From NCBI GenBank assembly GCA_024404495.1, contig JAKSPT010000006.1, positions 1-64,000 of the forward strand: a DNA stretch of 64,000 nucleotides, written 5' to 3'. The notes below the pieces were generated by a model that did no database searches, had not been told where the DNA came from, and worked only from the letters and a program-made list of their open reading frames with translations. The translations under genes and the position numbers were made by a program. This DNA is from Lachnospiraceae bacterium. Lineage in GTDB: Bacteria; Bacillota; Clostridia; Oscillospirales; CAG-272. Each line of letters starts with the position of its first letter. Within the stretch, counting starts at the first letter, position 1. Below are positions 15,032 through 53,712 of the stretch, in pieces.

Positions 15032-16966
15032 TTATTCTTCCGAAGGGTCTTCCTCGAATTTTTCGAAAAGGCCGTCCTTGCGGATCGCGTCGAACATCCG
15101 GTGCTTGACGCCTTTGTACTGCTTTTCCATCGAGGTCAGGAGCTGTTTCATCGTCTCGCGCTCGGTCGCGCCGTCGGCGGGACAGGGGTTTTTCAATATC
15201 GGCAGAGGGTTCTTGCCGACGAAATACCGTACGTCCTTTTCCTTGACGTAGAGGAGCGGGCGGATGACGGTCAGCTTTTTCCGCGAAAGGTAGGTCACGG
15301 GCAGGAAGGTCCCGAGGCGGCCCTCGTGGACGAGATTGAGCATGAAGGTTTCGATCACGTCGTCAAAATGGTGTCCGAGGGCGAGCTTATTGCAGCCCAT
15401 TTCCTTTGCGGCGTCGTGGAGCGCGCCCCGGCGCATTCTGGCGCAGAGCGAGCAGGGGTTCTTTTCCTTGCGGGTATCGAAAACGACGTGCCCGATCTCT
15501 GTCCGGACGATACGGAGCGGAACGCCGAGCTTTTCGCAGAAGGCGGCGATCTCCGAATAATCCGCCTCCGGGAAAAGCGAGATCGCGACGGCGTGCAGAC
15601 CGAATTTCTTCGGGTAGAACCGCTGCAGCTCCTTCAGCGCGACGAGCATCGAAAGCGAGTCCTTCCCGCCCGAAAGCCCGACGGCGATCTCGTCCCCGTC
15701 CTCGATCATATTGTAATCGTCGGCGGCACGGCGGACGCAGCTTAACAGTCTGCGCACGCCCGGAAAATCGGCGCGGTGCGAGCGGATGCGGCGCGCCTCC
15801 ATATAGTAGCGCTTGTCGTGCGCCTCTCCCATCGAAAAGGTCTTGCGCGGGAGGGGACCGTTTGCTTTGACGTAGGGGAAAAGACCCGACTTGGAAATGC
15901 CGTCAAAGAGGAAGCCGGCGGCGTTTTCCTTTTCCGCGAGGCGGAGGACGACGTCCTTCCCGTGGATATAATCGACCTCGCCGGGGTTGGAGGCAAGATA
16001 CGCGTCGATGAAGTCCTGCACGGCGGCGGAGGTCAGACCCGGAACGAATCCGGTCACCTCAGTTTTGCCGAGGACAAGCGTGACCGGGGAGGAACCGTCA
16101 AAGGGCTCCGCGGGAAACGCCTTTTTCCATTCGGCAAGCAGATTTTCGCGGTCGATATCGGTCAGGACGCGGTAGATCGGCTCGAAATCGAGCGCGGGAT
16201 CGTGGATGTTGACGAGCTCGACGAGCGCCGTTTTCGCCGCGGGATCGTCGGTCAGCGAGGCGCAGGTCTTTGCCGTGGCGAGCGAGTGGTTGCCGTCCCC
16301 GACCGCGAAAAGCATCGGTTCGGCGTCCTCCCCGCGCAGGGTGACGAGCGCTTCGTTCACCGCGTTTTTCGCTTCTTCGTCAAGGAGCCAGCCCGCGATC
16401 CTGCCCCCTCCCTGCATCAGCGGGAGGTCGTAGACCTGTTTCATCCGTTCCTTTTCCCCGGCAAGCGGTTCGATCACCGTGCGGAGCGGGTCGTCGCAGA
16501 GGAGCATGACGTGCGGCAGCTCGAGCGGGGCGTCCTTGCGGATCGCGACGCGGGGCGGGATGCGGGAAAGCACCGTCCCCTCGGTCGCGCGGATAAGCGG
16601 CTTTTTTGCCGGATCGTATTCGTAGTCGTCAAGGTCGATCGCGCCGATCAGACCCCGGCGCACTCTGCCGTCGGCAAGGGTGCGTTCGAGATAGATCATC
16701 GCGTCGGGATACTCGGTAAAGACGTTGTTTTTCAGATAATCCGTCATCGCCCGGTTGATTGCCCCGGTCCGCGCGGCAACGTCGCCGCTCAGATAGACCT
16801 CGGGAAGGATCAGATTGAGCGTTGAGGGGGCTTCCCCGACCGTTTTTTCGGTTTCCGCCCAATATTCGGGCTCGGAGGTGTACTGGTCGCAGGCGACCAC
16901 CGGCCACGCCGGGGAGGGAACGCGGGGGAGAAGGATGTCGGCGGGATGAAAAGGAATGTGATTCAT
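15032..16966 (-). CDS. DUF1015 protein fused in frame to a TtcA-like tRNA 2-thiocytidine synthase
   Basis: A 644-residue protein in two parts. Residues 1 to about 392 are a complete DUF1015 domain (FHPADILLPRVPSP at the start, AVGDGNHSLATAK in the middle, KRYYMEARR at the end), a family linked to serine metabolism in some bacteria. Residues about 400-644 are a TtcA/TilS-type ATP-pyrophosphatase: the PP-loop SGGKDS near 430, CSLC near 503 and a third cysteine in NPCPADG near 596, which together hold the Fe-S cluster that thiolates C32 of tRNA. Only about nine residues link them, with no stop and no internal ribosome binding site near M389. The start has AGGAAG upstream. Confidence 0.88.
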   Translation of the reverse strand: MNHIPFHPADILLPRVPSPAWPVVACDQYTSEPEYWAETEKTVGEAPSTLNLILPEVYLSGDVAARTGAINRAMTDYLKNNVFTEYPDAMIYLERTLADGRVRRGLIGAIDLDDYEYDPAKKPLIRATEGTVLSRIPPRVAIRKDAPLELPHVMLLCDDPLRTVIEPLAGEKERMKQVYDLPLMQGGGRIAGWLLDEEAKNAVNEALVTLRGEDAEPMLFAVGDGNHSLATAKTCASLTDDPAAKTALVELVNIHDPALDFEPIYRVLTDIDRENLLAEWKKAFPAEPFDGSSPVTLVLGKTEVTGFVPGLTSAAVQDFIDAYLASNPGEVDYIHGKDVVLRLAEKENAAGFLFDGISKSGLFPYVKANGPLPRKTFSMGEAHDKRYYMEARRIRSHRADFPGVRRLLSCVRRAADDYNMIEDGDEIAVGLSGGKDSLSMLVALKELQRFYPKKFGLHAVAISLFPEADYSEIAAFCEKLGVPLRIVRTEIGHVVFDTRKEKNPCSLCARMRRGALHDAAKEMGCNKLALGHHFDDVIETFMLNLVHEGRLGTFLPVTYLSRKKLTVIRPLLYVKEKDVRYFVGKNPLPILKNPCPADGATERETMKQLLTSMEKQYKGVKHRMFDAIRKDGLFEKFEEDPSEE

Positions 16967-28393: not shown

Positions 28394-28435
28394 CAAAAAA
28401 AGCAGAGACGATCACCGTATAGGTTCTCGTCTCTG
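28394..28435 (-). terminator. Terminator of the seven-gene ABC operon
   Basis: CAGAGACGA pairs with TCGTCTCTG and is followed on the minus strand by seven T residues. It lies 45 bases beyond the last permease stop codon. Confidence 0.9.
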
Positions 28436-28479: not shown

Positions 28480-29541
28480 TTAACCGACGATGCCGGAACG
28501 TTCGATACCCTGAACCAGATATCTCTGGCAGAAGAGGTAAACGACGATCAGCGGAGCGATGATCAGCAGCGAGCAGGTATTTCTGATCGCGGCGGAGTAC
28601 AGGTTCTGCGCGGCATAGTTGGTATCCAGGGTCTTCGGGATCTTGACGATACCGGGCATGAGGATCCACTTCTTCGTGTTGGTGAAGAAGACCTTCGTGT
28701 AGAAGTTATCGGTCCACTGCCAGCTGAACGCGAACAGGAAGATCGTGATCATCATCGGGATCGAGATCGGGAGAACGATCTGGAAGAAGGTGCGGAAGGT
28801 GGAGCAGCCGTCGATGTAAGCGGATTCCTCGAGTTCATCCGGGACACCGTTGAAGAACTGACGCATCATAAAGATGTACAGACCGTTCTTGAAACCGAGA
28901 CCGGTAAGCGAGAGGAGGATCAGAGGCGTGAAGGAGTTGGTCAGCTCGAGGGAACTGAACTTCAGCACCTTGAAGGAGCTGATCACGCCGCCGCCGAGCA
29001 GCTTGAAGATACCGAAGATATCGAAGTAACGGAACTTCATGAACATCGACAGACGGAGCGTGGTATGCGGAACGATCATCGTGAAGATGACGAGCGCGAA
29101 GATATACTTCTTGCCCTTGAAATTGTACTTTGCGAAGCCGTAGCCGATCAGCGAGCACATCAGGGTCTGGAGCAGCGCGCAGACGACCGAAAGGATCGTC
29201 GTGTTAAGGAGCGCCTCGCCGTACTTGTTCTCTTTGATGATCTCACGGTAGGTATCGAGAGTGAAGTTCTTCGGGATCATCTTGACCGTCGCGTCGACGA
29301 AGTCGTCACGACCCATGAAGGAGGAGGCGATCTTCGTGTAGAACGGCAGCAGGATGACGTAGCTGATACCGAGAAGAAGGACGAAACGGAAGAGCCACCA
29401 TGCAAGAGTTCCGACGAAGTGCCAGGAGAGGTACTTGATGCGGAATCGGGTCCAGGCGTCGGTACGCTCAAAATCGACCTTGATCTTGTTTTTGCTCTCT
29501 TTCAATACCTTCGGAGCGTTTTCAGTATTCTGTGCATTCAT
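28480..29541 (-). CDS. Carbohydrate ABC transporter permease, MalG-like (second pair)
   Basis: A 353-residue integral membrane subunit with six core helices after a long polar N-terminus (residues 1-50). The EAA loop, which docks the ATPase, reads EESAYIDGCSTFRTFFQIVLP. In this family it pairs with a MalF-type partner, here the gene directly upstream (14 bases away). GGAGGA precedes the start. It is the last gene of the operon. No ATPase gene is present anywhere in the operon, so a shared MsmX/MsiK-type ATPase encoded elsewhere is needed. Sugar specificity is unknown. Confidence 0.92.
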   Translation of the reverse strand: MNAQNTENAPKVLKESKNKIKVDFERTDAWTRFRIKYLSWHFVGTLAWWLFRFVLLLGISYVILLPFYTKIASSFMGRDDFVDATVKMIPKNFTLDTYREIIKENKYGEALLNTTILSVVCALLQTLMCSLIGYGFAKYNFKGKKYIFALVIFTMIVPHTTLRLSMFMKFRYFDIFGIFKLLGGGVISSFKVLKFSSLELTNSFTPLILLSLTGLGFKNGLYIFMMRQFFNGVPDELEESAYIDGCSTFRTFFQIVLPISIPMMITIFLFAFSWQWTDNFYTKVFFTNTKKWILMPGIVKIPKTLDTNYAAQNLYSAAIRNTCSLLIIAPLIVVYLFCQRYLVQGIERSGIVG

Positions 29542-29555
29542 TGTTTCATTCCTCC

Positions 29556-30515
29556 TCAGGTATCACGTTTCTGGTAGAAGATGTAAGCGGACAGGATACC
29601 GACGACGACCGCGATGATGACCATGACCATGAGGAAGTACATCCACGACATCGCGGCGCTGAGGACCATGCCTCCCGCTTCGTTATAGACGTTGTTGATG
29701 TAGGACATAACCGGGTTGGTGGCGTCGGTGAAGGCATCAATGACCGTGTAGACCGCGTTGACCAGGATCATCGGGCTGATCATCGGCAGGGTGATCTTCC
29801 AGAAGGTTTCCCAACCGGAAGCACCGTCGATCGAGCAGGACTCGTAGATCGCGGGAGAGATGGACTGCAGACCGGCGAGGAAGACGAGCATCTGGACGCC
29901 GGAACGGTTGATGATGTCGTAAATGTTGTTGATCAGACCCGCAACGTAGGTGAAGATCTCGCCGCCGACCTGCATGTTGCTGAAGAGCCTTGAGAAGTCG
30001 GCTGCCGAGACGACCTGCGCCACGGTGTTTTCACCGGAACCGGTGTTGATCGAACTGGAGGTATCGCTCATGCTGTTGATCAGCGCGTTGCCCGCGTCGA
30101 CCTCGTCGATCAGACCGGTGCAGAGGATGACCGGGACGAAGAAGATCGCACGGAAGGCCGCTCTGCCGAACATATTCTGGTTCAGCAGGACCGCCATGAA
30201 GAGCGAGAAGATAACGATTGCGGGGATATCGAAGAAGAGCTGCTTGACACCGCTCGTCAGCGTGGTGACGAAGGTCGGGTCGTCGAACAGTGCTTCGCGG
30301 TAGTTTTCCCAGCCGACGAACTCCAGATAGAAGCCGCCGCCCTGGATGTTGTGAATCTCGTTGAAGCTGTACTTGATCGAGTCGAAGATGATCGGCAGGT
30401 AGATGATGACAAAGCCGATCAGGAACGGGAGGATGAACCACCAACCCGCGCGTGCTTTCCGCTGATCAAGCGAAGCGATTTTTCTGCGCTTGGCGGGAGT
30501 AGCCTGTTTCGTCAT
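29556..30515 (-). CDS. Carbohydrate ABC transporter permease, MalF-like (second pair)
   Basis: A 319-residue permease with a basic N-terminus, six helices and a large periplasmic-side loop of about 60 residues rich in Ser/Asn (about 145-200). The EAA loop is YESCSIDGASGWETFWKITLP. GAGGAGG lies 8 bases before the ATG at 30515; a GTG at 30524 falls inside that site and is rejected. It comes 13 bases after the DUF5696 gene and partners with the MalG-like gene behind it. It is one of four permeases in the same operon. Confidence 0.92.
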   Translation of the reverse strand: MTKQATPAKRRKIASLDQRKARAGWWFILPFLIGFVIIYLPIIFDSIKYSFNEIHNIQGGGFYLEFVGWENYREALFDDPTFVTTLTSGVKQLFFDIPAIVIFSLFMAVLLNQNMFGRAAFRAIFFVPVILCTGLIDEVDAGNALINSMSDTSSSINTGSGENTVAQVVSAADFSRLFSNMQVGGEIFTYVAGLINNIYDIINRSGVQMLVFLAGLQSISPAIYESCSIDGASGWETFWKITLPMISPMILVNAVYTVIDAFTDATNPVMSYINNVYNEAGGMVLSAAMSWMYFLMVMVIIAVVVGILSAYIFYQKRDT

Positions 30516-30528
30516 GATTCGCACCTCC

Positions 30529-33500
30529 TCAATTATTTCTGAGAGCAGCGAAGCTCTCGAGCACGACTGCGCCGTTCGGGTCGATCTTCACGCCGTCGTA
30601 TGCCTTGACGAGCTGACCTTCCACGGTAACGTCGAAGTTATTGTAGTTCAGGATGTAGGAGAAGCCGTTTTCGTAGGTGACGCGGATGATCATACCGTTG
30701 TCGGAGGTGTACTTGGTGTACTCGTACTCTTCCTCGTCGGTTTCCTTCTCGTCTTCCTTCTTTTCTTCCTCTTCTTCATCCTTGTCGGGATCGTAGAAGT
30801 CGTCGTATGCCTTCTGTGCCTTTTCGAGGTTGGACTCCGCGGTTTCAAGCGCGGTCAGAGCCTTGTCGTATGCTCTGTAATCGGCAGCGGTGGCATCGGG
30901 ATTGTCGATGAGTCCCTTCACTGCGTCAAAGGCATCCTGCGCGGTGACGAGCTTTTCCTTCGCCTTACGGAGATTGAGGTTGACGAGACGTTCGGTTTCC
31001 TTCAGAGCCTCGGCTTCCGCCTTTGCGTCTTCCTCGAGCTTCTTCTCGGCTTCCAGCTCGTCTTTTCTCATCTCACGTTCGGTGGGTACGCGTTCGCCGA
31101 TGAGGAATTCGTGCTTGTCAAGCGGAGAGGTGAGGACGTCGGAGAGGACGGTGTTCAGCTCTTTGTAGATCGCAATGAGGTCTTCCTTCCAGATGTCGTA
31201 AGCGATGGAGTAGTACTTGGAGAGCGTGACGCTTTCCTTCAGCTTCTGGATGTTCTGAACAGCCAGAATGAAGTAGGGGCTTGCGCCGTTCTCGACGATC
31301 TTCAGGACCTCGTAGTCGATATCACCGACCATGTTGGTAGGCGTGCCGGCAAAGTTGAGGTAGCCGTGGAAGACGAGGCCGAAGAACGGGACCGCCTCGG
31401 AAGCGTAGGTGTAGTGGCTGGAGTCAAGCGAGACGTTGAGAACGTGGTTGGCGTAAGCAAGGGTGTATGCGTTGCCGCATTCGACCATGACGTTGTCATA
31501 CGCTTCTCTGATGCGCTTGAGAGAATCGGAAATGTTCGCCTTGGAGTCCTCGCGGTTGTACGGATCCTTCTTATCGAAGTCGGAGTTCAGGTCCGAACCG
31601 AGGGTTCCGAAGGAGATCGCGTTCGCGCCGAGAGTGGTCAGCTTGGTCTGCATATTGCCGAAGATATCCGAGAACACGGAGGGAGAAACCGCGACGCCGC
31701 CGGAGGAGGAGAAGTACTGCAGGGTGGCGGAGTAGGCCCTCTTATGGGTGTAACGGTTATCGATGGTCTTGCAGGCGTCGTTCTTGTAGGAGAAGCCGTC
31801 GAACAGCTTATCCTTAGCGGCGTAGGAGATATCAAATTCCGGGAAAACGAGGTAGCCCTTCGCCTTGGAGTCGGCAACGAGATCGGAGAAACCGTCGTCG
31901 GCGCCGGCTGCCTTCTCGAACTTGATCTTGTTCGGGACGGAAGGATTCATACCGCCGTTGTAGTAACCGGTCAGCTTGAAGTTGACGTTCTTGATCCCGG
32001 CTTCGCTGAGCTCGGCGTACATATTCTTGATGTCGTCGAAGGTGGTCAGCGCGCGCTTGACGGTGACCGGGACGGACAGGACCTTTTCCTGAACGTCGAT
32101 GACGCCGAGCGTCTCGATGTAGAGCGAAAGATCCTTCTGGGTTTCGGGCAGGGGCTTCAGGATTTCCTTGCCGATCAGGTAATCACGGTAAGCGTGAGCC
32201 ATACCGGTATAGGAGGTCTCGTACAGCTTATCGGTGGTCTCACCGGATTCCGCGAGCTCGCCGATCGTCTTGTCGTCGGTCAGCATAATGTAGCGGATAC
32301 GGGTGGAGCCGGTGTACTTACGTTCGGAAACGACGGTCCACATCGCGTTCGCGCCGACGGACATTGCGGATGCCAGGTTGTACTGGTCCTTCGGTCTCGG
32401 GTTGTATTCGATGAAGGCGGTGTCGTACTTGTGCTGGCCCTGCGTACCGAGGGTGGCGTTCTGACCGCCGTGCTCGGTATAGATGGTAGCGAGGGATTCA
32501 CCCTCCTCAAGGATCGCGAGGAAGCCGCGCTTCTTGGTAACCTTGGTGTAGAGATCGGTGACGTCGGTCTCGGGCTCGGTTTCCGCATCGGGATCCTCGG
32601 GCTCGGTCTCTTCGGGTTCGGTCTCTTCGGGTTCGGTTTCCTCAGCGGTTTCCCCTTCGGCGGTCTCTGCGGCAGTCTCGTCGCCCTCGGGGATGATCAG
32701 CTTGCCGTTTTCGTCGTAGGTAAGGACGACGTCCTCAACCAGACCGAAGACGGGGAGACGCATGACCTCGGTGTTCGCGCCCGCGATTTCGTGGTACGCG
32801 TAGTCCTGACCGTAGATCTTACCGGAAAGGGTTCTGCCGGTGCCGGTCTTCAGGACGTCCTCAACGCGGACGAGGGTACCGGAACCGTCGGGAATGAAGG
32901 TGTAGCCGTTAAAGTCGTTGGAGCCGGCGCCCATATACGGCAGGACGCGGATGGTTTCCAGCGAGTAGGTGGATTCGTCGAAACGGAGACCGTTATTGGG
33001 GAGACGGGCGGTCAGACCCATTTCGTCAATGTAGTATTCCAGTGCAAGGCTGAAACGGGGCGGGTTGGAGTCGGAGCCCTGATACTCCGCTTCGAGATGG
33101 TCGTTTGCGAGTTCCTCGTAGGTGTAAAGCGGGCAGAACTTCTTGATGTAGCCTTCAAGAAGGTTCTTTTCACGTTCGCCGACTGCGGGGTCGATGACGT
33201 AAATCGGGAACTTGCTTGCGATCGGCCATTTCTGAAGGATATTGTCTTTTTCCTTCTGGGTCTTATCGGGGTCTTCGATGTCGTAGAAGGTATAGTAAAC
33301 GGAGACCTTTTTCCATGCCTTCTCGTCCTCCGCCTTGATCAGATCAAGGATCTTGGTATCGAGGCTCTCTGCCTTGATCTGCATCGGGAGGAGCTTACGG
33401 GTTTCCTGACGGCCGAGGATATACTCGACGCGGATACCGTTCTTGACGTTCTTGACGAGGATCTGTCCTCTCTTGGCAGCTTCAACGTAGGAGTACATCG

Positions 33501-33912
33501 TGACTTCGGTGCCGTCGGTGTTGGTGTACTTCAGGATGATCTGCGAGAGGAGCTGATTCTTGACGTTTTCGGAGGAAGTGGTCGTGCCGACGTCGTAGGG
33601 GTTCGAGAAGAGAATGTCGCCGCTCTTCTTGCTCTTGACCGCTACTTCGCCGCTGACCGGGTCGCAGTAGAGCTCATAGCCGTACTTTTCGGAGTCAAGC
33701 TTGAGCTGCATCGTTTCAAGCTTCTGCTCGGGGGTGTAATACTTTTTGGTGACGTAATCGATGGTCGCGTCTTCCTTGGAGGTATCCGCGGAGGTCGTGG
33801 TGCTGTCCTTGACCGCCGTGGTATCATCCGCAGCGAAGACGGAAAGTCCGGTTGCCGCGAGAGTACCGAAAAGCATACAGAGGGCCATAAGCAGCGAGAT
33901 CAGTTTTTTCAT
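30529..33912 (-). CDS. DUF5696-like large exported protein, possibly a glycosidase-type TIM barrel
   Basis: A 1127-residue exported protein with a signal peptide (MKKLISLLMALCMLFG... cut after VFA). Residues about 60-410 and 460-900 look like the DUF5696 region often found beside sugar ABC permeases and YIP1 proteins. The later part (about 610-880) has alternating beta/alpha segments such as NVNFKLTGYYNGG, YLVFPEFDISY and NVMVECGN that suggest a TIM barrel. An acidic Glu/Thr/Pro repeat (ETEPEETEPEET) lies near 425-450; a coiled-coil with Lys/Glu/Ala heptads near 965-1060 and a DPDKDEEEEE stretch follow. AAGGAG precedes the ATG at 33912. It probably sits at the surface and handles or hydrolyses the imported glycan (inference). 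Confidence 0.78.
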   Translation of the reverse strand: MKKLISLLMALCMLFGTLAATGLSVFAADDTTAVKDSTTTSADTSKEDATIDYVTKKYYTPEQKLETMQLKLDSEKYGYELYCDPVSGEVAVKSKKSGDILFSNPYDVGTTTSSENVKNQLLSQIILKYTNTDGTEVTMYSYVEAAKRGQILVKNVKNGIRVEYILGRQETRKLLPMQIKAESLDTKILDLIKAEDEKAWKKVSVYYTFYDIEDPDKTQKEKDNILQKWPIASKFPIYVIDPAVGEREKNLLEGYIKKFCPLYTYEELANDHLEAEYQGSDSNPPRFSLALEYYIDEMGLTARLPNNGLRFDESTYSLETIRVLPYMGAGSNDFNGYTFIPDGSGTLVRVEDVLKTGTGRTLSGKIYGQDYAYHEIAGANTEVMRLPVFGLVEDVVLTYDENGKLIIPEGDETAAETAEGETAEETEPEETEPEETEPEDPDAETEPETDVTDLYTKVTKKRGFLAILEEGESLATIYTEHGGQNATLGTQGQHKYDTAFIEYNPRPKDQYNLASAMSVGANAMWTVVSERKYTGSTRIRYIMLTDDKTIGELAESGETTDKLYETSYTGMAHAYRDYLIGKEILKPLPETQKDLSLYIETLGVIDVQEKVLSVPVTVKRALTTFDDIKNMYAELSEAGIKNVNFKLTGYYNGGMNPSVPNKIKFEKAAGADDGFSDLVADSKAKGYLVFPEFDISYAAKDKLFDGFSYKNDACKTIDNRYTHKRAYSATLQYFSSSGGVAVSPSVFSDIFGNMQTKLTTLGANAISFGTLGSDLNSDFDKKDPYNREDSKANISDSLKRIREAYDNVMVECGNAYTLAYANHVLNVSLDSSHYTYASEAVPFFGLVFHGYLNFAGTPTNMVGDIDYEVLKIVENGASPYFILAVQNIQKLKESVTLSKYYSIAYDIWKEDLIAIYKELNTVLSDVLTSPLDKHEFLIGERVPTEREMRKDELEAEKKLEEDAKAEAEALKETERLVNLNLRKAKEKLVTAQDAFDAVKGLIDNPDATAADYRAYDKALTALETAESNLEKAQKAYDDFYDPDKDEEEEEKKEDEKETDEEEYEYTKYTSDNGMIIRVTYENGFSYILNYNNFDVTVEGQLVKAYDGVKIDPNGAVVLESFAALRNN

Positions 33913-33936
33913 TTCTGTTTTCACTCCTTCTGTATG

Positions 33937-36093
33937 TCAGAGTCGATAGGATATCTCTACGACGATGGAGGTGATGAAACCGACCATCTTATAGAGAAGC
34001 GTGGAGAAGAGGATTCCGAGGAACATGATGAACGCCATACCGACGACGGTACCGACGCAGGTGATCAGGTTCTTCAGGAGCGAGTAGTCGTGGGTGACCA
34101 TCATACCGAAGATGACCAGGATCGCGACCCACGCCCACGCGATGGTGACCAGACCGTTGACCAGAGTGGCCTCGGAGGCGGTGACGAAGTTGGAAGCGAT
34201 GACCGACGGGATGATGAGGAGCGGAAGAGGCGTCAGCGAGTAGGTGGTCGCGACGAAGATATCCTTGAAGGAGCCTTCGCCGTCGAACAGCGTCGTGAGA
34301 CACCAGTTCGCGGTGATCCACAGGAAGACCGGGACGATAAGGGAAATGGTCTGGCTGAAGATCGAGGAGTAAGTGGCTCTCGGGTTGAAGATGTAGCCTC
34401 TGCCGATCGCCTGATAGGTGAAGGTGAGGACCGCGAGAGCAAGATAGAAGATACCGCCGCGGACCGATCCTCGTTTCTCGTGCTTCAGATCCCAGAAGCC
34501 GTCGAACGGGTGGAAGATCAGGTGGAACGCGTAGAGCACTTCCTGCCAGAAGGTGCGCTTCTTGCCGGAGAGTGCGACGCGGGCGTTGACCTTGTTCGCG
34601 TAGCCGAAGAACTTGACGATGAGGAAGCAGATCACGACGATTCCGATCGGAACCAGAATGATGTACTTGGTAACGACTTCCTTGCGGTACATCTTATACG
34701 CGTTCGAGTAGTTTGCGGTATCGTACGCGTACTTGAAGTATTCCATCGCCTCGGGCCACTTGTATTCGCGGTAGTAAGCCTTACCGATACCGATATAAGC
34801 GGAGTCGAAGTTGGAGTTACGCTGCAGGATGTTCTGCCAGTCGTCGACCGCTTCGTCGTAGAGCTGTTCGTTCTCGTTGTGGAGAGCGTTGATCAGGATG
34901 TCGCCGTATTCGGTACGGGTGTAGATGGTGAGGTTGTTGACGTTGGTGTCCATCAGGATCAGGTCGCTGCCGTGATAAACGATCGCGCCGAGATTCTGAA
35001 TGTTGCCGAGCTGGGTACCCTTATCGCCGAAGGCGAAGAGGAGGTTACCGTCGGAGTCGTAGGTGAAGGTCTTGGAACGCTTCTGGTCGATGATGGACCA
35101 GGTGCCTTCGGGACCGACCGCCGCGTCCACGATGGTGGAAGCACCGGTGATGCTCGAATTGATCGTGCTGTTATTGACCGAGACTTCACCGCCGGGTCCG
35201 AAGAAGCCGTTGCGGCGCATGATATCGTCGCCGGAGGTGTTCAGCTTCTTGACCGGTGCGTAGGTGCCCGCCTTGCTCGTGATGGCGCCCTGCTGAGCGC
35301 CCTCGTCGATGGAGGAGGTCGTGACATAGAGGAAGCCCTCGTTGTCAATGGTGATGTTGTTGTACTCGGTGGAGACGAGGGTCGTGGTACGTCTTCTCTG
35401 CTCCTTGGTCTGGAAGACACGGAAGAAGATGTCGAGCGCGTTGTAAACGACCTTCTGTGCGCCGATGAAGCCCTGGAATTCGCCCTCCGCGTTCAGAGCG
35501 ATGATACCCTGATACGTGGTAGCGGAAACGACGTAGACGCCGCCTGCCTTATCGACCGCGATGGCAACGGGCTTGTAGATCGCGTCAGCCTCGAAGATCT
35601 CGGACTGAGGCTCCTGCAGGATCTTGATGAAGTTGCCTTTGGTATCAAAGAGGACGATACGGTTGTTGCCGGTATCGGCAACGTAGACGGTGCCCTCAAA
35701 GTCGCCTTCGGCATTGTACTTGCCGGTGACGAAGACGCCCTGAGGAGAGGCAAGACCGTCCGCGAGGCCCTGCTCATTATAGAAGGTAGAGATGTAAAGC
35801 TCAGCCTTGTAGAAGGAGTCGAGGACGACGACGCGGTTGTTGCCGGTATCGGCAATGTAGAACCGGTCGTCGGGACCGACGACGAGGTCTTTCGGGGAGG
35901 AAAGGTTCACGTCAAGTCCCATATACGCGGAGTCGATCTGCATGACCGGCGTATAAGCCGCCGGAGAGGTCAGCGTGGAACCGCTGATGGAGTAGGTGTA
36001 AGTACCGTAAGGAAGCGCGAAGGTCGGGAGGGCGGTCATCAGCGTCATCAGGACGAGCGCCAGCACGACTGCGGTTTTGATGAATTTTCTCAT
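33937..36093 (-). CDS. NHL beta-propeller protein with TPR and C-terminal YIP1-like membrane domain
   Basis: A 718-residue protein. A signal peptide (MRKFIKTAVVLALVL...) leads to an NHL-type propeller, residues about 45-400, with repeats of FYIADTGNNRVVVLD and VYVADTGNNRIVLFD. A TPR-like pair (about 410-465: DDWQNILQRN, KWPEAMEYFKYAYDTA) follows, then a membrane helix (about 475-495), a cytosolic basic segment, and five helices (about 545-715) of YIP1 character. The propeller is therefore outside and tied to a membrane bundle, a layout suited to sensing or organising a surface complex. It sits between the first permease pair and the DUF5696 gene. No enzymatic role is evident. Confidence 0.82.
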   Translation of the reverse strand: MRKFIKTAVVLALVLMTLMTALPTFALPYGTYTYSISGSTLTSPAAYTPVMQIDSAYMGLDVNLSSPKDLVVGPDDRFYIADTGNNRVVVLDSFYKAELYISTFYNEQGLADGLASPQGVFVTGKYNAEGDFEGTVYVADTGNNRIVLFDTKGNFIKILQEPQSEIFEADAIYKPVAIAVDKAGGVYVVSATTYQGIIALNAEGEFQGFIGAQKVVYNALDIFFRVFQTKEQRRRTTTLVSTEYNNITIDNEGFLYVTTSSIDEGAQQGAITSKAGTYAPVKKLNTSGDDIMRRNGFFGPGGEVSVNNSTINSSITGASTIVDAAVGPEGTWSIIDQKRSKTFTYDSDGNLLFAFGDKGTQLGNIQNLGAIVYHGSDLILMDTNVNNLTIYTRTEYGDILINALHNENEQLYDEAVDDWQNILQRNSNFDSAYIGIGKAYYREYKWPEAMEYFKYAYDTANYSNAYKMYRKEVVTKYIILVPIGIVVICFLIVKFFGYANKVNARVALSGKKRTFWQEVLYAFHLIFHPFDGFWDLKHEKRGSVRGGIFYLALAVLTFTYQAIGRGYIFNPRATYSSIFSQTISLIVPVFLWITANWCLTTLFDGEGSFKDIFVATTYSLTPLPLLIIPSVIASNFVTASEATLVNGLVTIAWAWVAILVIFGMMVTHDYSLLKNLITCVGTVVGMAFIMFLGILFSTLLYKMVGFITSIVVEISYRL

Positions 36094-36110
36094 GCTTTTC
36101 TCCCTCCTTA

Positions 36111-36974
36111 TCAGTCTTTCATACCGGAAGATCCCATCGTTTCGACGATCTTACTCTGGTTGATCAGGAAGACGATGATCGGCACGCTCATCATGAGCAG
36201 GATCGCCGCCGAGCCCGCACCCGAGCTGACGCCCGAAACGGTCGCGATCGCGGTGTTGAAGGTCTTGAGCTGTTCAGACCAGACGTAACCCGAAGCACCT
36301 GCGTTCCAGACGCTCTGGAAGGTGGTGACGATCAGGGTCAGCCACGCCGGCTTGACCAGCGGCATGACGATCGACCAGTAGATCTTGATCTCGGACGCGC
36401 CGTCGATTCGTGCCGCCTCGATCATTTCATCCGAAACGTTCGAGTCGATGAACTGCTTCATCAGGTACAGACCCAGCGTGGAAGCCCACACCGGCACGAT
36501 CGAGATCGTGTAGGTGTTCAGCCACCCGAGCGCGACGTAAATGAAGAAGTTCGTGATACCGGTGACGGTCGAGGAGATCATCAGGGAGTAACGGATGACT
36601 GCGAAAATGAAGTTGTGTCCGGGGAACTTGATCTTGGACAGCGAGTAAGCCGTCAGAGAACCGAGGACCAGGCATCCGAAGGTCGCGGCGACCGAGATGA
36701 TGATCGTATTGAAGATGTATCTCGACATCGGGACCCAGGTGGAGTTCATGTTGGTGAACAGGTCGATGAAGTTCTGCAGGGTCGGCTTGATAACGTAGAA
36801 GTTAGGCGGGGTGATGGAACGCTCACCGAGCGGCTTGAACGCCGTGACGATGAGGTACCAGACCGGAAGGAACATCGCGATGCCGAGGATCGTGAGCATG
36901 ACCGTGATCACCGCGTCGCCGCCGACCGAACGGTTGAGGACGACCGCGTGTTTTCTTGTTCTCAGTTTTTTCAT
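36111..36974 (-). CDS. Carbohydrate ABC transporter permease, LplC/MalG-like (first pair)
   Basis: A 287-residue permease with six membrane helices and the EAA loop IEAARIDGASEIKIYWSIVMP. NRSVGGDAVITVMLTILGIAMFLPVWY at the start is typical of the LplC/YtcP type that serves large solute-binding proteins. The start follows the stop of the upstream permease by one base, so the pair is translationally coupled; this gene is 17 bases ahead of the NHL/YIP1 gene. Specificity cannot be read from the sequence. Confidence 0.93.
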   Translation of the reverse strand: MKKLRTRKHAVVLNRSVGGDAVITVMLTILGIAMFLPVWYLIVTAFKPLGERSITPPNFYVIKPTLQNFIDLFTNMNSTWVPMSRYIFNTIIISVAATFGCLVLGSLTAYSLSKIKFPGHNFIFAVIRYSLMISSTVTGITNFFIYVALGWLNTYTISIVPVWASTLGLYLMKQFIDSNVSDEMIEAARIDGASEIKIYWSIVMPLVKPAWLTLIVTTFQSVWNAGASGYVWSEQLKTFNTAIATVSGVSSGAGSAAILLMMSVPIIVFLINQSKIVETMGSSGMKD

Positions 36975-36975
36975 A

Positions 36976-37962
36976 TCACGAACCTACCTTCGACAGCAGC
37001 TTCTGGACCAGCGAGTTGGCGCCGATCATCAGGAAGAAGAGGACGACGGCGATCGCGGACGCGTAGCCGTACTCGAAACGGGTACCCATGTACTCGGAAA
37101 GGTGGTGGGTCAGCGTCCATGCGACGTAGTCGGTGGAGGGGTTGCCGCAGAGGTCGTTGACGATGCCGCCGAAGCCGAATGCACCGGTGATTGCGAGGAC
37201 TGCACCGAAGAGCAGGATCTGCTTCATTTCGGGCAGGGTGATGTACCAGAGCTCCTGCCAACGGTTCTTGATACCGTCGATGGCGCCTGCTTCATACAGG
37301 TCGCGGCGAACGCCCTGAAGACCTGCGATGTTCGCAAGGAAGCCGGTACCGAGGGAGGTCCAGAGCGCGACCACGATACAGATCGGGACGATGTAGGTGG
37401 TGTTCTGGAAGAAGATGATCGGGTCGGTGATGATACCCATCTTGAAGAGCCAACCGTTGACGTAGCCGTAGATATCGCCCTGGAAGAGGAGCTTCCAGAC
37501 CAGATATGCGGAACCGGAAATGGACGGCGCGTAGAAGATGAAGGTAACGACCGCACGGACCTTCGGGGAAAGCTCGTTGATGAACCATGCGAGGACGAAG
37601 GACAGGATGTAGGAGGCAGGTCCGGTCGTGATCGCGAACATCAGCGTATTCTGAAGTGCGGTGATGAACAGGTCGTCGTCAAGGAACATACGGATGTAGT
37701 TGTCCATGAAGATGAACTGCGGCATCTGTAACATATCAAAGGAAGTAAAGCTGAGCAGGATGGAAAGGACAACGGGCGCAACCGTGAACGCGAGGAACAT
37801 GAGGAGGAAGGGAGCAACCATAACGTAACCGACCCAGGTGCGTTTCATCTGGATGCGGATGTACTCGCCTTTCGTCATATCTTTCCGCGACTTATACGGC
37901 TGTTCTGTTACCGGAGTTTCCTGCTTGACTTCTTCAACCGATGCGTTGTTGGTCATTTGCAT
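36976..37962 (-). CDS. Carbohydrate ABC transporter permease, LplB/MalF-like (first pair)
   Basis: A 328-residue permease with a polar N-terminus of about 40 residues, six helices and the EAA loop YEAGAIDGIKNRWQELWYITLP. It pairs with the LplC-like protein encoded one base downstream. AAGGAGAG precedes two possible starts, ATG 37962 (4 bases) and ATG 37956 (10 bases); both encode nearly the same protein. It follows the solute-binding protein gene by 30 bases. The four permeases of this operon form two heterodimer pairs that differ clearly in sequence, so they are not a recent tandem duplication. Confidence 0.93.
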   Translation of the reverse strand: MQMTNNASVEEVKQETPVTEQPYKSRKDMTKGEYIRIQMKRTWVGYVMVAPFLLMFLAFTVAPVVLSILLSFTSFDMLQMPQFIFMDNYIRMFLDDDLFITALQNTLMFAITTGPASYILSFVLAWFINELSPKVRAVVTFIFYAPSISGSAYLVWKLLFQGDIYGYVNGWLFKMGIITDPIIFFQNTTYIVPICIVVALWTSLGTGFLANIAGLQGVRRDLYEAGAIDGIKNRWQELWYITLPEMKQILLFGAVLAITGAFGFGGIVNDLCGNPSTDYVAWTLTHHLSEYMGTRFEYGYASAIAVVLFFLMIGANSLVQKLLSKVGS

Positions 37963-37992
37963 TTCTCTCCTTATTATTATATATTTGCGTGA

Positions 37993-40900
37993 TTACTCGT
38001 CTTCGCGTGCTGCCTTGTAGGAAATCTCGTAGTAATCCAGCTTGAATTCCTTGCGCTTTCTCGAAATCTCCTTGTTGATCTCAAGGATACGGTCGAGCAT
38101 TGCGTCGACAGGCTCGGAGTTGTTGTTGTAAACGGTGTTGAACGCGTTTGCAACGTAAACGCCGACGATGTAGTTGCCGGGGTACTCGGGAACGGAGGCG
38201 AGCTCATTCAGCTGCGTCTCGACCGCTTTGAGTTCCTTGTCGGTCCAGGCGAGCTTCTTCAGCGCGTTGATGTTCGCGGTGTTGTACTTGGTGGTCGGGT
38301 TCGCCGCGACGTTCAGCTGTTCCTTGGCGAGACGGAGCTGCATATCCTCGGAAACCATCCACTTGATGTATTCCCAGCTGGACTGCTCGTTGTTCGCGCC
38401 TCTCGGGATAACGTACGAGCTGACCGTGACGACCGAGGTACGGTTCACGGAAGTGATGTTGCCGTCTTCATCCCTGGTCTCGATACCGGGAAGAGGAGCC
38501 ATCTCCCACAGACCACGCAGCTCGTAGAAGCCCATCAGCGTGTTGTAGGTACCGATCGCGTCGGAGATGACGATCGGAATTTCACCGGTACGGAAACGGG
38601 TGATATCGTAGCTGACCGGGCTCTTGTACTTGGTGAACATACCCGTCAGTTTCTCGAACGCGGCAAGCGCGGTGTTGCTGTCAAGGTTGATCTTCCAACC
38701 TTCGTGACCCTCTTCCATGGAGTAGAGGGTTGTATCCATTTGATAGAGGAAGATATTGAGTCCGCTCAGCGCGGTGGGGAAGCCGACCTCGAGGTGACCC
38801 TTCATCAGAGCGGGAAGAACGACTTCCTCCATCTCGGTCCAGGTCTGGGGAGCCTCAAGTCCGTATTCCGCGAGAACGTCGGTGCGGTAGAACATCATGG
38901 AGAAGGACATCGCCTGAGGAATACCGTAGGTAATGCCGTCCATCGTAAGGGGCTGGGTAGCGGCGGGGTCGAACCAGGTCATGACCTCGTCGAAGTCCTT
39001 GAACTTACGCTGACCGATCTGCGACGCGTCGGTGATGACGCCCTTGTCGTAATCGTCCTGCGTGTAGGTGTAGCTCAGCTTGGAGATCGCGTTACGCATA
39101 CCCCAGGTGACCGTATCGTTCGAGCCCATGCCCGCAAGGTCGGGACCGATGCCGGCGAGGATCGCCTCGGTCAGACCCGCGGTGATGACCTTGATGGTGA
39201 CGCCGATGCCGGTTTCGGGCGTGAAGTAGTTATCGATCAGGTGACGCTGGATCAGCGCGTCCTCACGGCCTGCCGCGGAGACGATCCACAGCTCGACGGA
39301 GGTCTTCTCATCGACCTCGGCGTCGGATGCGAAACCGATCGTCGTGTAGTCCATGAAGAAGGACTGGATGAACGCCTTGATCTCGAAGAAGGCTGCCTGG
39401 AAGAAGTTCGACTTGCCCTGCGGCGCTTCGTCGAGCTTGTCGGTGGAAAGGACCACGTACTTGTCGACCTTCAGCGGCTGGGACAGAGCGGAATACAGCC
39501 AGTTGGAAAGCGCGATGATATAGTTCTTATAGGTAATGAGGTTCGGTGCGATCTCGTACTCGTCGCTTGCCATCTTCTCGAACAGAAGACCGATGGTGTT
39601 CAGGGTAGCGACCTGGTCGCCGAGCTCGCCGGTGACCTCCTGCAGCGACTCCGCCATCGCGAAGAGTTCGTCTGCGGCGGCGCCGATCGTGTTGATCGCG
39701 TCGGGAACGAGGCGCATGAAGTTGTATTCACGCTGTGCGTCGGGAGTAGGACCGGTGATGAGAAGGATCTTCTGGTAAGCGGTGTTCAGACGCTCGACCA
39801 TCTGCTCGATCTCGTAGACGTAATCGGTCATATCGCCGAGCACGATCTCGACCATCAGGTCGTTCTCGCCCTCGTTGAGGTAGAAGAGGAAGCCGTCCTT
39901 CTTCTGATCGTACTTTCCGTCGCCGTCAATGTCGGAACCGTTGGAAAGCAGTCTGGTCTGCCACTCGGGGCTGTAGGGGAAACGCAGATGGCTCGCTTCG
40001 TCGAACTGGACCTCGCCGTTGACGTAGAGGCGGCGGGAGGTGAACATACCGATCAGGGAGTTCTGACGCTGACGGCACGCGATGTAGTAGAGGCCCGCCT
40101 TCGGAACGGTGATCTTATAGTTCATCCAGTGGTTGACGACCGAGGTGTCCAGCATATTGTAGCGGATCTCGGAGGGGTTCTGCGGGGTGGTCAGGGAAGA
40201 AGTACGGTCGTTCGCCGGGAACAGGCAGGCGTTCGAGACCGAGGTCGGATTCTCCGCCTCGATGATGACCGGATCAACGCCGGTCGCCTCGGTGATGCCC
40301 TTTGCTTTGCAGTTCGCGAGGAACTCCTCGTAGCTGATATTCGCGGCAAACGGGTAGAGACGGATCGTGGAGATCACGATCGGCTCACGCGCTGCCTCGA
40401 AGGTAATGGTGTGGGTACCCGCTTTGAAATAGAATTCAAACGGATCCATCGTGTAGCCCAGCCAGTCACGGAGGTAGTACTCGGTCCACTTCGGGCACTC
40501 GGAACGGCGCGGACGGATATCGTTGCCGTTGATGTCGGTGGAGAAGACCGGTTTGCCGTCCTCGGTGTAGTGGTCGTACTCATATTCCCACGAACGGGGG
40601 AAATAGAAGTAGCTGGCTTCGGAGAAGGGGAGCTTGCCGTCGACGTACAGCATACGTTCGATGGTGGTCCAGCTGCCCGCGGCTGCGAAGTAGTTGATGG
40701 AGATGGCGTACATGCCGTCCTCCGGGACCGTGAACGTCCAGCTCGTCTTGCCGCTGTCGGGCATATAGAGGGACCGGGTCTTGCAGTCTTCGTAGCCTGC
40801 TTCCTTGACTTCCACCTCGGCAGTCGTCTGATCCGCGTCGTATTCCCACGCGTTCAGGACGATCTCTTCCTTCGCGCGGGGCACGTCGGAATATTTATCC

Positions 40901-41118
40901 TGGTAGTCAAGATAAGGGTCGATATCAAGGTACTTGGTGACGTCTTCCAGCTTCGTAAAGCCGTCGTAGTAGCCCTGATAAGGGGTCGAGCCGCTGTCTA
41001 ACGCTTCCGGTTCTTCCGCGTCTTCCGCTGCGACGGGCATGGCGACAGCCAGTGTCCCGAAGAGCATCAGACCGGCAAGAAAGACGGAAAGCAGTCTTTC
41101 AAAAAGCGGTTTTTTCAT
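37993..41118 (-). CDS. Giant extracellular solute-binding protein with N-terminal carbohydrate-binding-like modules
   Basis: A 1041-residue exported protein, more than twice the size of a usual sugar-binding protein. After a signal peptide (cut near AVAMPVAAEDA) come two beta-rich modules of about 150 residues each (about 85-270 and 285-440) with matching TFTVPEDGMYAISINY and KITVPKAGLYYIACRQ strands and YVDGKLPFSEAS/YVNGEVQFDEAS, resembling CBM6/35-like domains. A helical linker (about 450-600) precedes the solute-binding domain proper (about 630-1010: YGIPQAMSFSMMFYRTDVL, GLEAPQTWTEMEEV). There is no lipobox; anchoring is unclear. AGGAGG precedes the ATG at 41118. It is the first gene of a seven-gene operon with a consensus promoter 360 bases upstream. 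Confidence 0.88.
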   Translation of the reverse strand: MKKPLFERLLSVFLAGLMLFGTLAVAMPVAAEDAEEPEALDSGSTPYQGYYDGFTKLEDVTKYLDIDPYLDYQDKYSDVPRAKEEIVLNAWEYDADQTTAEVEVKEAGYEDCKTRSLYMPDSGKTSWTFTVPEDGMYAISINYFAAAGSWTTIERMLYVDGKLPFSEASYFYFPRSWEYEYDHYTEDGKPVFSTDINGNDIRPRRSECPKWTEYYLRDWLGYTMDPFEFYFKAGTHTITFEAAREPIVISTIRLYPFAANISYEEFLANCKAKGITEATGVDPVIIEAENPTSVSNACLFPANDRTSSLTTPQNPSEIRYNMLDTSVVNHWMNYKITVPKAGLYYIACRQRQNSLIGMFTSRRLYVNGEVQFDEASHLRFPYSPEWQTRLLSNGSDIDGDGKYDQKKDGFLFYLNEGENDLMVEIVLGDMTDYVYEIEQMVERLNTAYQKILLITGPTPDAQREYNFMRLVPDAINTIGAAADELFAMAESLQEVTGELGDQVATLNTIGLLFEKMASDEYEIAPNLITYKNYIIALSNWLYSALSQPLKVDKYVVLSTDKLDEAPQGKSNFFQAAFFEIKAFIQSFFMDYTTIGFASDAEVDEKTSVELWIVSAAGREDALIQRHLIDNYFTPETGIGVTIKVITAGLTEAILAGIGPDLAGMGSNDTVTWGMRNAISKLSYTYTQDDYDKGVITDASQIGQRKFKDFDEVMTWFDPAATQPLTMDGITYGIPQAMSFSMMFYRTDVLAEYGLEAPQTWTEMEEVVLPALMKGHLEVGFPTALSGLNIFLYQMDTTLYSMEEGHEGWKINLDSNTALAAFEKLTGMFTKYKSPVSYDITRFRTGEIPIVISDAIGTYNTLMGFYELRGLWEMAPLPGIETRDEDGNITSVNRTSVVTVSSYVIPRGANNEQSSWEYIKWMVSEDMQLRLAKEQLNVAANPTTKYNTANINALKKLAWTDKELKAVETQLNELASVPEYPGNYIVGVYVANAFNTVYNNNSEPVDAMLDRILEINKEISRKRKEFKLDYYEISYKAAREDE

Positions 41119-41480: not shown

Positions 41481-41509
41481 ATGATATCATAGAATCCCCC
41501 GATTGTCAA
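41481..41509 (-). promoter_or_regulatory. Sigma-A promoter of the seven-gene ABC operon
   Basis: On the minus strand TTGACA (41504-41509), a 17-bp spacer and TATCAT (41481-41486). The -10 region lies in the palindrome ATGATATCAT. Confidence 0.85.
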
Positions 41510-53461: not shown

Positions 53462-53574
53462 AGCGTCTTTTTCAGCGGTGGAAGAATGCCCGATAAGGCG
53501 CATTTCCTGCGCGAAAGATCGGCTGCATTCTTCGTCTCCCAAAAATGTTCCGGTTTTACCCGGCGACCGGGTCC

Positions 53575-53695
53575 TCACGGCAGGTATTCCGACTGACGGC
53601 AGTTCAATAACAAACAGCCGATCACGGTAATGGCGGTTGCGACGGAATTTCACCGAACTTCCCCCTGATCCGGCAGAGCCGGAACCGTGTGACGC
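53575..53695 (-). promoter_or_regulatory. Cobalamin riboswitch aptamer
   Basis: On the minus strand the conserved core GTTCGGTGAAATTCCG (after GGGGGAA) is followed by CGCAACCGCC, and then by GTCAGTCGGAATACCTGCCG, which is the 3' conserved box with the GAATACCTGCC motif of cobalamin (B12) riboswitches. A promoter lies at the 5' side and a mid-leader hairpin (GAAGAATGC/GCATTCTTC) and a terminator at the 3' side. It should turn the two downstream genes off when B12 is abundant. Confidence 0.9.
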
Positions 53696-53712
53696 GATTT
53701 GATTGTGTTACT

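Follow-up and report, generated by a model that had tools for sequence, protein, structure and literature searches.

A conserved double CUT1 importer operon with GH129-like and NHL-YIP1 proteins, proposed as a shared hub for orphan receptors in gut Clostridia

We investigated a seven-gene operon at positions 28480-41118 (minus strand) of a 64,000-nucleotide stretch of DNA from a Lachnospiraceae bacterium placed in CAG-272 by GTDB (assembly GCA_024404495.1, contig JAKSPT010000006.1, positions 1 to 64,000; hereafter, the window). We consider it reasonably probable that this operon encodes a double carbohydrate uptake transporter 1 (CUT1) importer for plant or host oligosaccharides, and that this importer is a hub shared among orphan receptors. 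The seven open reading frames (ORFs) run in the same direction, were confirmed at their coordinates, and are separated by intergenic gaps of 1-30 nt. The genes and their control signals, in the order of transcription, are:

41481..41509, minus strand: sigma-70 type promoter, TTGACA-17-TATCAT, with a TG-extended -10 element and 11/12 consensus positions
37993..41118, minus strand: giant solute-binding protein (SBP), 1041 aa, with a signal/anchor helix, two beta-sandwiches resembling carbohydrate-binding module (CBM) family 35, a helical bundle, and a CUT1 SBP core
36976..37962, minus strand: permease F2 (MalF/UgpA-like), 328 aa, EAA loop intact; its orthologue adjoins the SBP in relatives
36111..36974, minus strand: permease G2 (MalG/UgpE-like), 287 aa, EAA loop intact
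33937..36093, minus strand: NHL propeller-TPR-transmembrane-YIP1 fusion, 718 aa, with Pfam NHL and Yip1 domains
30529..33924, minus strand: DUF5696 protein, 1131 aa, predicted to be exported, with a fold like that of glycoside hydrolase (GH) family GH129 and DagB
29556..30524, minus strand: permease F1 (MalF/UgpA-like), 322 aa, EAA loop intact
28480..29541, minus strand: permease E1 (MalG/UgpE-like), 353 aa, EAA loop intact
28394..28435, minus strand: intrinsic terminator, a strong hairpin with a 9-bp stem and a U-run, z -5.8

A preliminary description of the window had bounded the operon by this promoter and this terminator, and both signals were borne out by the consensus match and hairpin score listed above, the terminator having been overlooked by a simple scan. 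The leader, which spans ~360 nt between the promoter and the first start codon, matched no family in Rfam and thus no known riboswitch. The Pfam assignments, namely four BPD_transp_1 permeases, SBP_bac_8/SBP_bac_1 in the C-terminal portion of the giant SBP, NHL plus Yip1, and DUF5696 at E 1e-134, agree with the ORFs in upholding the seven genes as first described: four permeases, a binding protein, an NHL-YIP1 protein, and a DUF5696 protein. The 1127 residues first reported for the last of these correspond to an in-frame ATG, whereas its ORF opens at a GTG at 33924 and comprises 1131 aa. Antisense to the DUF5696 and NHL-YIP1 genes runs a 1932-codon open frame (30490-36288, plus strand), for which codon usage is the likeliest explanation, given that the sense genes are conserved.

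All four permeases possess the EAA-type coupling loop (with ...DG...P) and therefore look able to contact an ATPase. A MalF/MalG-like permease pair with an EAA loop, by which a CUT1 importer is recognized, accordingly occurs twice over in the operon. CUT1 importers normally draw on a shared MsmK/MsmX/UgpC ATPase encoded elsewhere. In the window genome, we found two TOBE_2 ATPases. One, at the end of a polyamine operon, is PotA; the second is of the UgpC type (479 bits against a cut-off of 432) and sits on another contig than the operon. The presence of this gene rules out an ATPase-less transporter, and the lack of an ATPase within the operon, first presented as a peculiarity, is the usual CUT1/MsmK arrangement. 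Judging from sequence, this UgpC/MsmK-type ATPase would energize the operon permeases; further, a plasmid copy of the operon in Paenibacillus cellulosilyticus has ugpC directly upstream. Three strong MalG-type CUT1 permeases are encoded in the window genome, two of them within the operon and the third at another CUT1 locus (C24). The permeases and the ATPase also bear on the idea that the operon specifies a sensing or adhesion apparatus instead of an importer. While a large surface-exposed propeller and CBM-like and glycosidase-like domains would suit such an apparatus, the ATPase-coupling loop is kept in all four permeases and a UgpC-type ATPase is present, which makes this idea highly improbable.

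Conservation of the operon was examined at three scales. DUF5696 was present in 112 of the 118 sampled genomes of the window's family, covering 69 of 71 genera, and the loci cut from those genomes showed the identical seven genes in the identical order wherever the contig was long enough. A scan of a named collection recovered 80 loci, from Clostridia metagenome-assembled genomes (MAGs) of ruminant, chicken, other gut, or digester origin, with all seven genes in order in each of the 66 loci that had sufficient flanks; the remaining loci were cut by a contig end, were missing one of the outer genes where the stretch ended, or had a broken reading frame. At the scale of the phylum, DUF5696 scored above the cut-off in 39 of 398 genomes (~10% of Bacillota), surrounded by the same gene set. 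The order there can be permuted to NHL-YIP1-DUF5696-F1-E1-SBP-F2-G2 (L119, L122, L127, and L133), and NHL-YIP1-DUF5696-F1-E1 can occur without a local giant SBP (L111, L130, and L132). These arrangements indicate that the operon consists of two modules, namely (i) the giant SBP with F2 and G2 and (ii) NHL-YIP1 and DUF5696 with F1 and E1. Named carriers include plasmids of Butyrivibrio fibrisolvens and P. cellulosilyticus. The preliminary description had held that the set would be accidental if NHL-YIP1 and DUF5696 did not stay with these permeases in other genomes; they do so phylum-wide, and an accidental gene set is ruled out by the synteny in the family and across the phylum.

Two of the loci are odd in other respects. 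The operon in L185 (JAGARL010000319.1, titled Methanocorpusculum sp. RGIG8706) is a bacterial operon under an archaeal label, probably on a mis-binned MAG contig. In P. cellulosilyticus (L221:19952-29175), several LLM-class flavin-dependent oxidoreductases come after the operon, together with two ordinary SBPs, which is unusual company for a sugar importer.

The DUF5696 protein proved to have a recognizable fold. A phylum-wide DUF5696 profile matched the sequences of the 3,6-anhydro-D-galactosidase DagB (5opq, 2e-8) and of the GH129 enzyme NagBb (5wzn, 2e-7), and an AlphaFold model of the protein (mean predicted local distance difference test score, pLDDT, 82) gave Z 29.3 against DagB (597 residues aligned) and Z ~25 against NagBb. 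The model comprises a beta-sandwich, a TIM barrel, and a C-terminal beta domain, which is the three-domain arrangement of GH129 and DagB, as well as a coiled-coil insert at ~950-1045. The TIM barrel, first suggested as a possibility, is therefore real. A literature search under the name DUF5696 found no paper; the fold itself is of a known, GH129-like type. Some loci (L047, L048, L049, and others) encode DUF5696 proteins of at least 2000 residues, about twice the length of the window protein, with large insertions.

The catalytic aspartate of NagBb is Asp435 (PMC5698469), which corresponds to Asp486 of DagB; the second acid, Glu478 of NagBb, was placed from the alignment. We read the equivalent positions of the operon DUF5696 proteins from a profile-profile alignment (E 9e-39) to free-standing, apparently cytoplasmic cousins of ~580 aa. 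The aspartate expected of GH129 is Thr774 in the window protein and is replaced by Thr, Ser, or Asn in all 50 family sequences, whereas it is kept in 7 of the 24 sequences sampled from the phylum. The second acid is Glu815 in the window protein and is Asp or Glu in 40/50 family and 12/24 phylum sequences. With the catalytic aspartate kept in 7/24 and both acids in 2/24 phylum members, a uniformly dead DUF5696 is ruled out, and a uniformly active one is unsupported for the window's family. We infer that the operon protein has a GH129-like fold in which the constraint on catalysis is relaxed or changed, and that its most likely role would be in binding glycans or positioning chains rather than in cutting them. 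Canonical GH129 (PF11308) gave no match in 299 Bacillota genomes, yet the controls likewise gave none. The ~580-aa cousins, which occur in genomes of the family, match NagBb at 1e-13 and keep both acids at the Asp435 and Glu478 positions; by sequence, they are candidates for an uncharacterized group of active glycosidases in the same bacterial family:

L051:6013-7740, L051:11432-13180, L052:4702-6441, L053:1330-3078, and L054:8701-10428: ~580-aa cousins, with no apparent signal peptide

Elsewhere in the phylum, the NHL-TPR and YIP1 parts (~490 and ~210 aa) are frequently encoded by separate, adjacent genes, as in B. fibrisolvens; their fusion in the window suggests that the two parts act together. 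NHL, YIP1, and DUF5696 keep beside F1-E1 at every locus whose contig reaches far enough. A literature search for YIP1 or NHL together with ABC (ATP-binding cassette) transporters found no paper.

The model of the giant SBP (mean pLDDT 86) resolves into two beta-sandwiches (~86-255 and ~284-426), a helical bundle (~430-545) that is missing from the preliminary description, and an SBP core (~604-1028) of MalE-like fold, the nearest structure of which is the beta-1,2-glucooligosaccharide SBP 5ysb (Z 31.9). The two sandwiches agree with the two extra carbohydrate-binding-like modules reported earlier, and CBM_35 was matched weakly by 18 of 46 orthologues. The window protein has a signal/anchor helix without a lipobox, and a lipobox occurs in only 5 of 71 family orthologues, suggesting that the giant SBP, like the DUF5696 protein, is held by its N-terminal helix or by a complex rather than by a lipid.

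An ordinary SBP of ~450 aa lies within the same locus at 26 of the 32 operon loci of other lineages, in 23 of them within ~520 bp (Pfam confirmed 13 of these proteins), as compared with only 5 of 114 loci in the window's family. The window genome instead contains ~35 paralogous SBPs of ~500 aa, mostly orphan lipoproteins; of the 25 whose gene context was viewed, 23 carry a lipobox and all lack a permease next to them, so that SBP genes without neighbouring permeases, by which an orphan-SBP importer is recognized, are plentiful here. That a single binding protein goes with both permease pairs is thus a local picture, since in relatives another SBP, of the ordinary kind, is usually found near the operon and the window genome has its ordinary-type SBPs elsewhere. 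Contig C17 of G000 (L265:996-8649) carries five orphan SBP genes in tandem, with no permease gene nearby.

Several observations tie the orphans to the operon. A profile of the operon-neighbouring SBPs of other lineages scored 77-138 bits against the orphans and did not match the SBP that belongs to the other CUT1 locus. Consistent with this, a FastTree analysis placed 38 orphans and 15 operon-neighbouring SBPs in one clade (support 1.0), outside which fall the giant SBPs as well as five SBPs from other loci. Within the family, the median number of orphan-type SBPs was 6 in genomes with the operon and 1 in the five genomes that lack it (p 0.002). Moreover, in 14 of 29 operon genomes the operon supplies the only strong MalG-type permeases, and several of these genomes carry 3-19 orphan-type SBPs; G005 (at least 19 orphans) and G028 (18) are examples. 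The five operon-lacking relatives, by comparison, have 1-5 strong MalG-type permeases and 0-3 orphan-type SBPs, and two of them (G019 and G081) have 3-5 other permeases and no orphans. Outside the family, the orphan profile matched 7/20 operon-bearing genomes as against 0/17 of those lacking the operon (p 0.008); a second profile (A9) matched 24/32 and 0/47, respectively, at E 1e-60, and 3/10 versus 0/47 (p 0.004) when only non-contributing genera were counted.

The genes nearby point to glycans. GH2, GH38, pectinase-like, and acetylesterase genes lie near orphan SBP genes, GH3, GH10, GH26, and GH43 genes lie near operons in other lineages, and the matching operon of Caldicellulosiruptor (Anaerocellum) bescii is induced by xylan (PMC8579813). 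These findings support the original suggestion of glycan uptake; the suggestions that the unit is conserved and that its accessory parts are unusual are upheld as well. The gene context argues against a housekeeping importer for one compound, such as a cell-envelope or self-made glycan, to which the orphan SBPs would be unrelated. Such an importer would explain the near-universal retention of a single copy (the window genome has one DUF5696 gene) and the absence of a glycosidase within the operon, but it is improbable, given that very different plant-polysaccharide enzymes adjoin the operon in other lineages, that some phylum genomes have several operon copies, and that the orphans cluster with the operon-neighbouring SBPs.

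In the reading that we favor, that of a double importer with a shared hub, the F1/E1 pair would go with NHL-YIP1, the DUF5696 protein, and ordinary lipoprotein SBPs; in the window's family, the ordinary SBP would have moved out of the operon and expanded into dozens of orphan receptors dispersed over the genome, for which the single-copy operon would thus act as a shared import hub. Extracellular enzymes would release oligosaccharides, which orphan lipoprotein SBPs, whose specificities probably differ from one to the next, would capture and deliver to F1/E1. The propeller and the YIP1 bundle may hold the DUF5696 protein and the permeases together, the giant non-lipidated SBP would serve F2/G2, and UgpC would hydrolyze ATP for both permease pairs.

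Alternatively, the operon could encode two ordinary, independent, co-transcribed CUT1 transporters for oligosaccharides; DUF5696 would then be a GH129-type glycosidase, active at the surface and trimming the substrates of both, and the orphans would serve other permeases or act as surface adhesins. The C. bescii counterpart is annotated in this way, as XloEFG and AxoFGE plus GH129 (PMC8579813), the modules are separate in some genomes, and both catalytic acids are kept in the two phylum sequences mentioned above. We nevertheless regard this alternative as doubtful: (i) NHL, YIP1, and DUF5696 stay beside F1-E1 without exception where contigs suffice, (ii) the catalytic aspartate is replaced in 50/50 DUF5696 proteins of the window's family, (iii) the orphans fall in one clade with the operon-neighbouring SBPs, and (iv) in 14 operon genomes the only strong MalG-type permeases are those of the operon.

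Several points weigh against a shared hub. Some operon genomes have few or no detectable orphans (G022 has none; G006, G021, and G115 have one each), so that the operon is independent of the SBP expansion, and the CUT1 locus C24 could serve some orphans of the window genome. Both GH129 catalytic acids persist in two of the 24 DUF5696 proteins sampled from the phylum and one persists in the window protein, and the halves of the C. bescii locus are treated as two independent transporters. Further, some of the tested genomes had contributed to profile A9, the family is represented mostly by incomplete MAGs, and the association tests ignore both this incompleteness and shared ancestry, the genomes being phylogenetically non-independent.

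A more far-reaching version, which we put forward only tentatively, is that the parts form one large surface-to-membrane complex with two ABC channels, in which a catalytically dead glycosidase receives or threads glycan chains and on which interchangeable lipoprotein receptors, dozens of them, all dock as on a universal hub. If so, one importer would serve almost all oligosaccharide uptake across an entire bacterial family, as a Gram-positive counterpart of SusCD in logic, not in parts. If the operon is a hub, in this version or the simpler one, a genome's sugar diet would be readable from its orphan receptors, and one operon would control access to nearly all of it. The importer is kept almost without exception by a family of largely uncultured gut Clostridia, and a testable role can be offered for DUF5696 and for bacterial NHL-YIP1 proteins. 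It also becomes of interest how an enzyme fold whose active site has decayed came to be a permanent component of a transporter.

Two further features lie elsewhere in the window: a cobalamin riboswitch (53562-53704, minus strand; 43.4 bits, above the Rfam gathering score) and an unusual 644-aa ORF (15032-16966, minus strand) that fuses a DUF1015 domain to a PP-loop ATPase domain (ATP_bind_3).

Among known systems, ordinary CUT1 importers share MalF/MalG-type permeases, an SBP, and a remote ATPase with the operon; they differ from it in that the operon has two permease pairs, a giant CBM-bearing SBP without a lipobox, and NHL-YIP1 and GH129-like subunits. In the SusCD systems of Bacteroidota, surface glycan-binding lipoproteins feed a membrane importer. 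Unlike these, the operon is of the ABC type, has no TonB or outer-membrane channel, and appears to have many receptors share one importer, where SusCD has a single pair at each locus. The DUF5696 protein shares the three-domain fold of GH129 NagBb and GH129-like DagB (5wzn, 5opq; PMC5698469) over ~570-600 residues (Z 25-29), but differs in its mostly degenerate catalytic positions, operon context, and large insertions. More than one SBP per permease set, as proposed here, is known from A. bescii Athe_0595-0598 (two SBPs) and from Pseudomonas Cbc, an importer that, as cited in PMC12838199, uses several or orphan SBPs; in comparison with Cbc, the window genome has dozens of orphan SBPs, which would dock on a core with extra extracytoplasmic subunits.

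The closest counterpart is the xylan degradation locus of C. bescii (xloEFG-X-GH129-axoFGE-xynF...), which is induced by xylan and Avicel and has been presented as a pair of CUT1 transporters accompanied by a 'GH129' gene (PMC8579813). Both loci contain an SBP, two permeases, X, a GH129-type gene, and two permeases, with no local ATPase and a shared MsmK; by position, XloFG corresponds to F2/G2, X to NHL-YIP1, GH129 to DUF5696, and AxoFG to F1/E1. The same gene order having been published, the word 'undescribed' in the preliminary description was too strong. Our locus L120 has the gene-for-gene order SBP-F-G-X-GH129-F-G-SBP, followed by a GH43 gene, and we take it to be the C. bescii locus or a close relative, the genus of L120 and L131 being deduced from this order. 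The two arrangements differ in that the ordinary SBP adjoins the permeases in C. bescii, whereas in the window's family such SBPs are scattered through the genome and the operon lacks a terminal SBP. The published report (PMC8579813) leaves X and the GH129 gene unanalyzed and describes no phylum-wide unit, and we found no literature report of the conservation of the unit, of the DUF5696 fold and the decay of its active site, of the obligatory NHL-YIP1 partner, or of the change from one neighbouring SBP to dozens of orphans. In summary, the system had already been reported from one lineage, where it was taken for two transporters and a glycosidase, and what is new here is its conserved accessory parts and its proposed hub organization.

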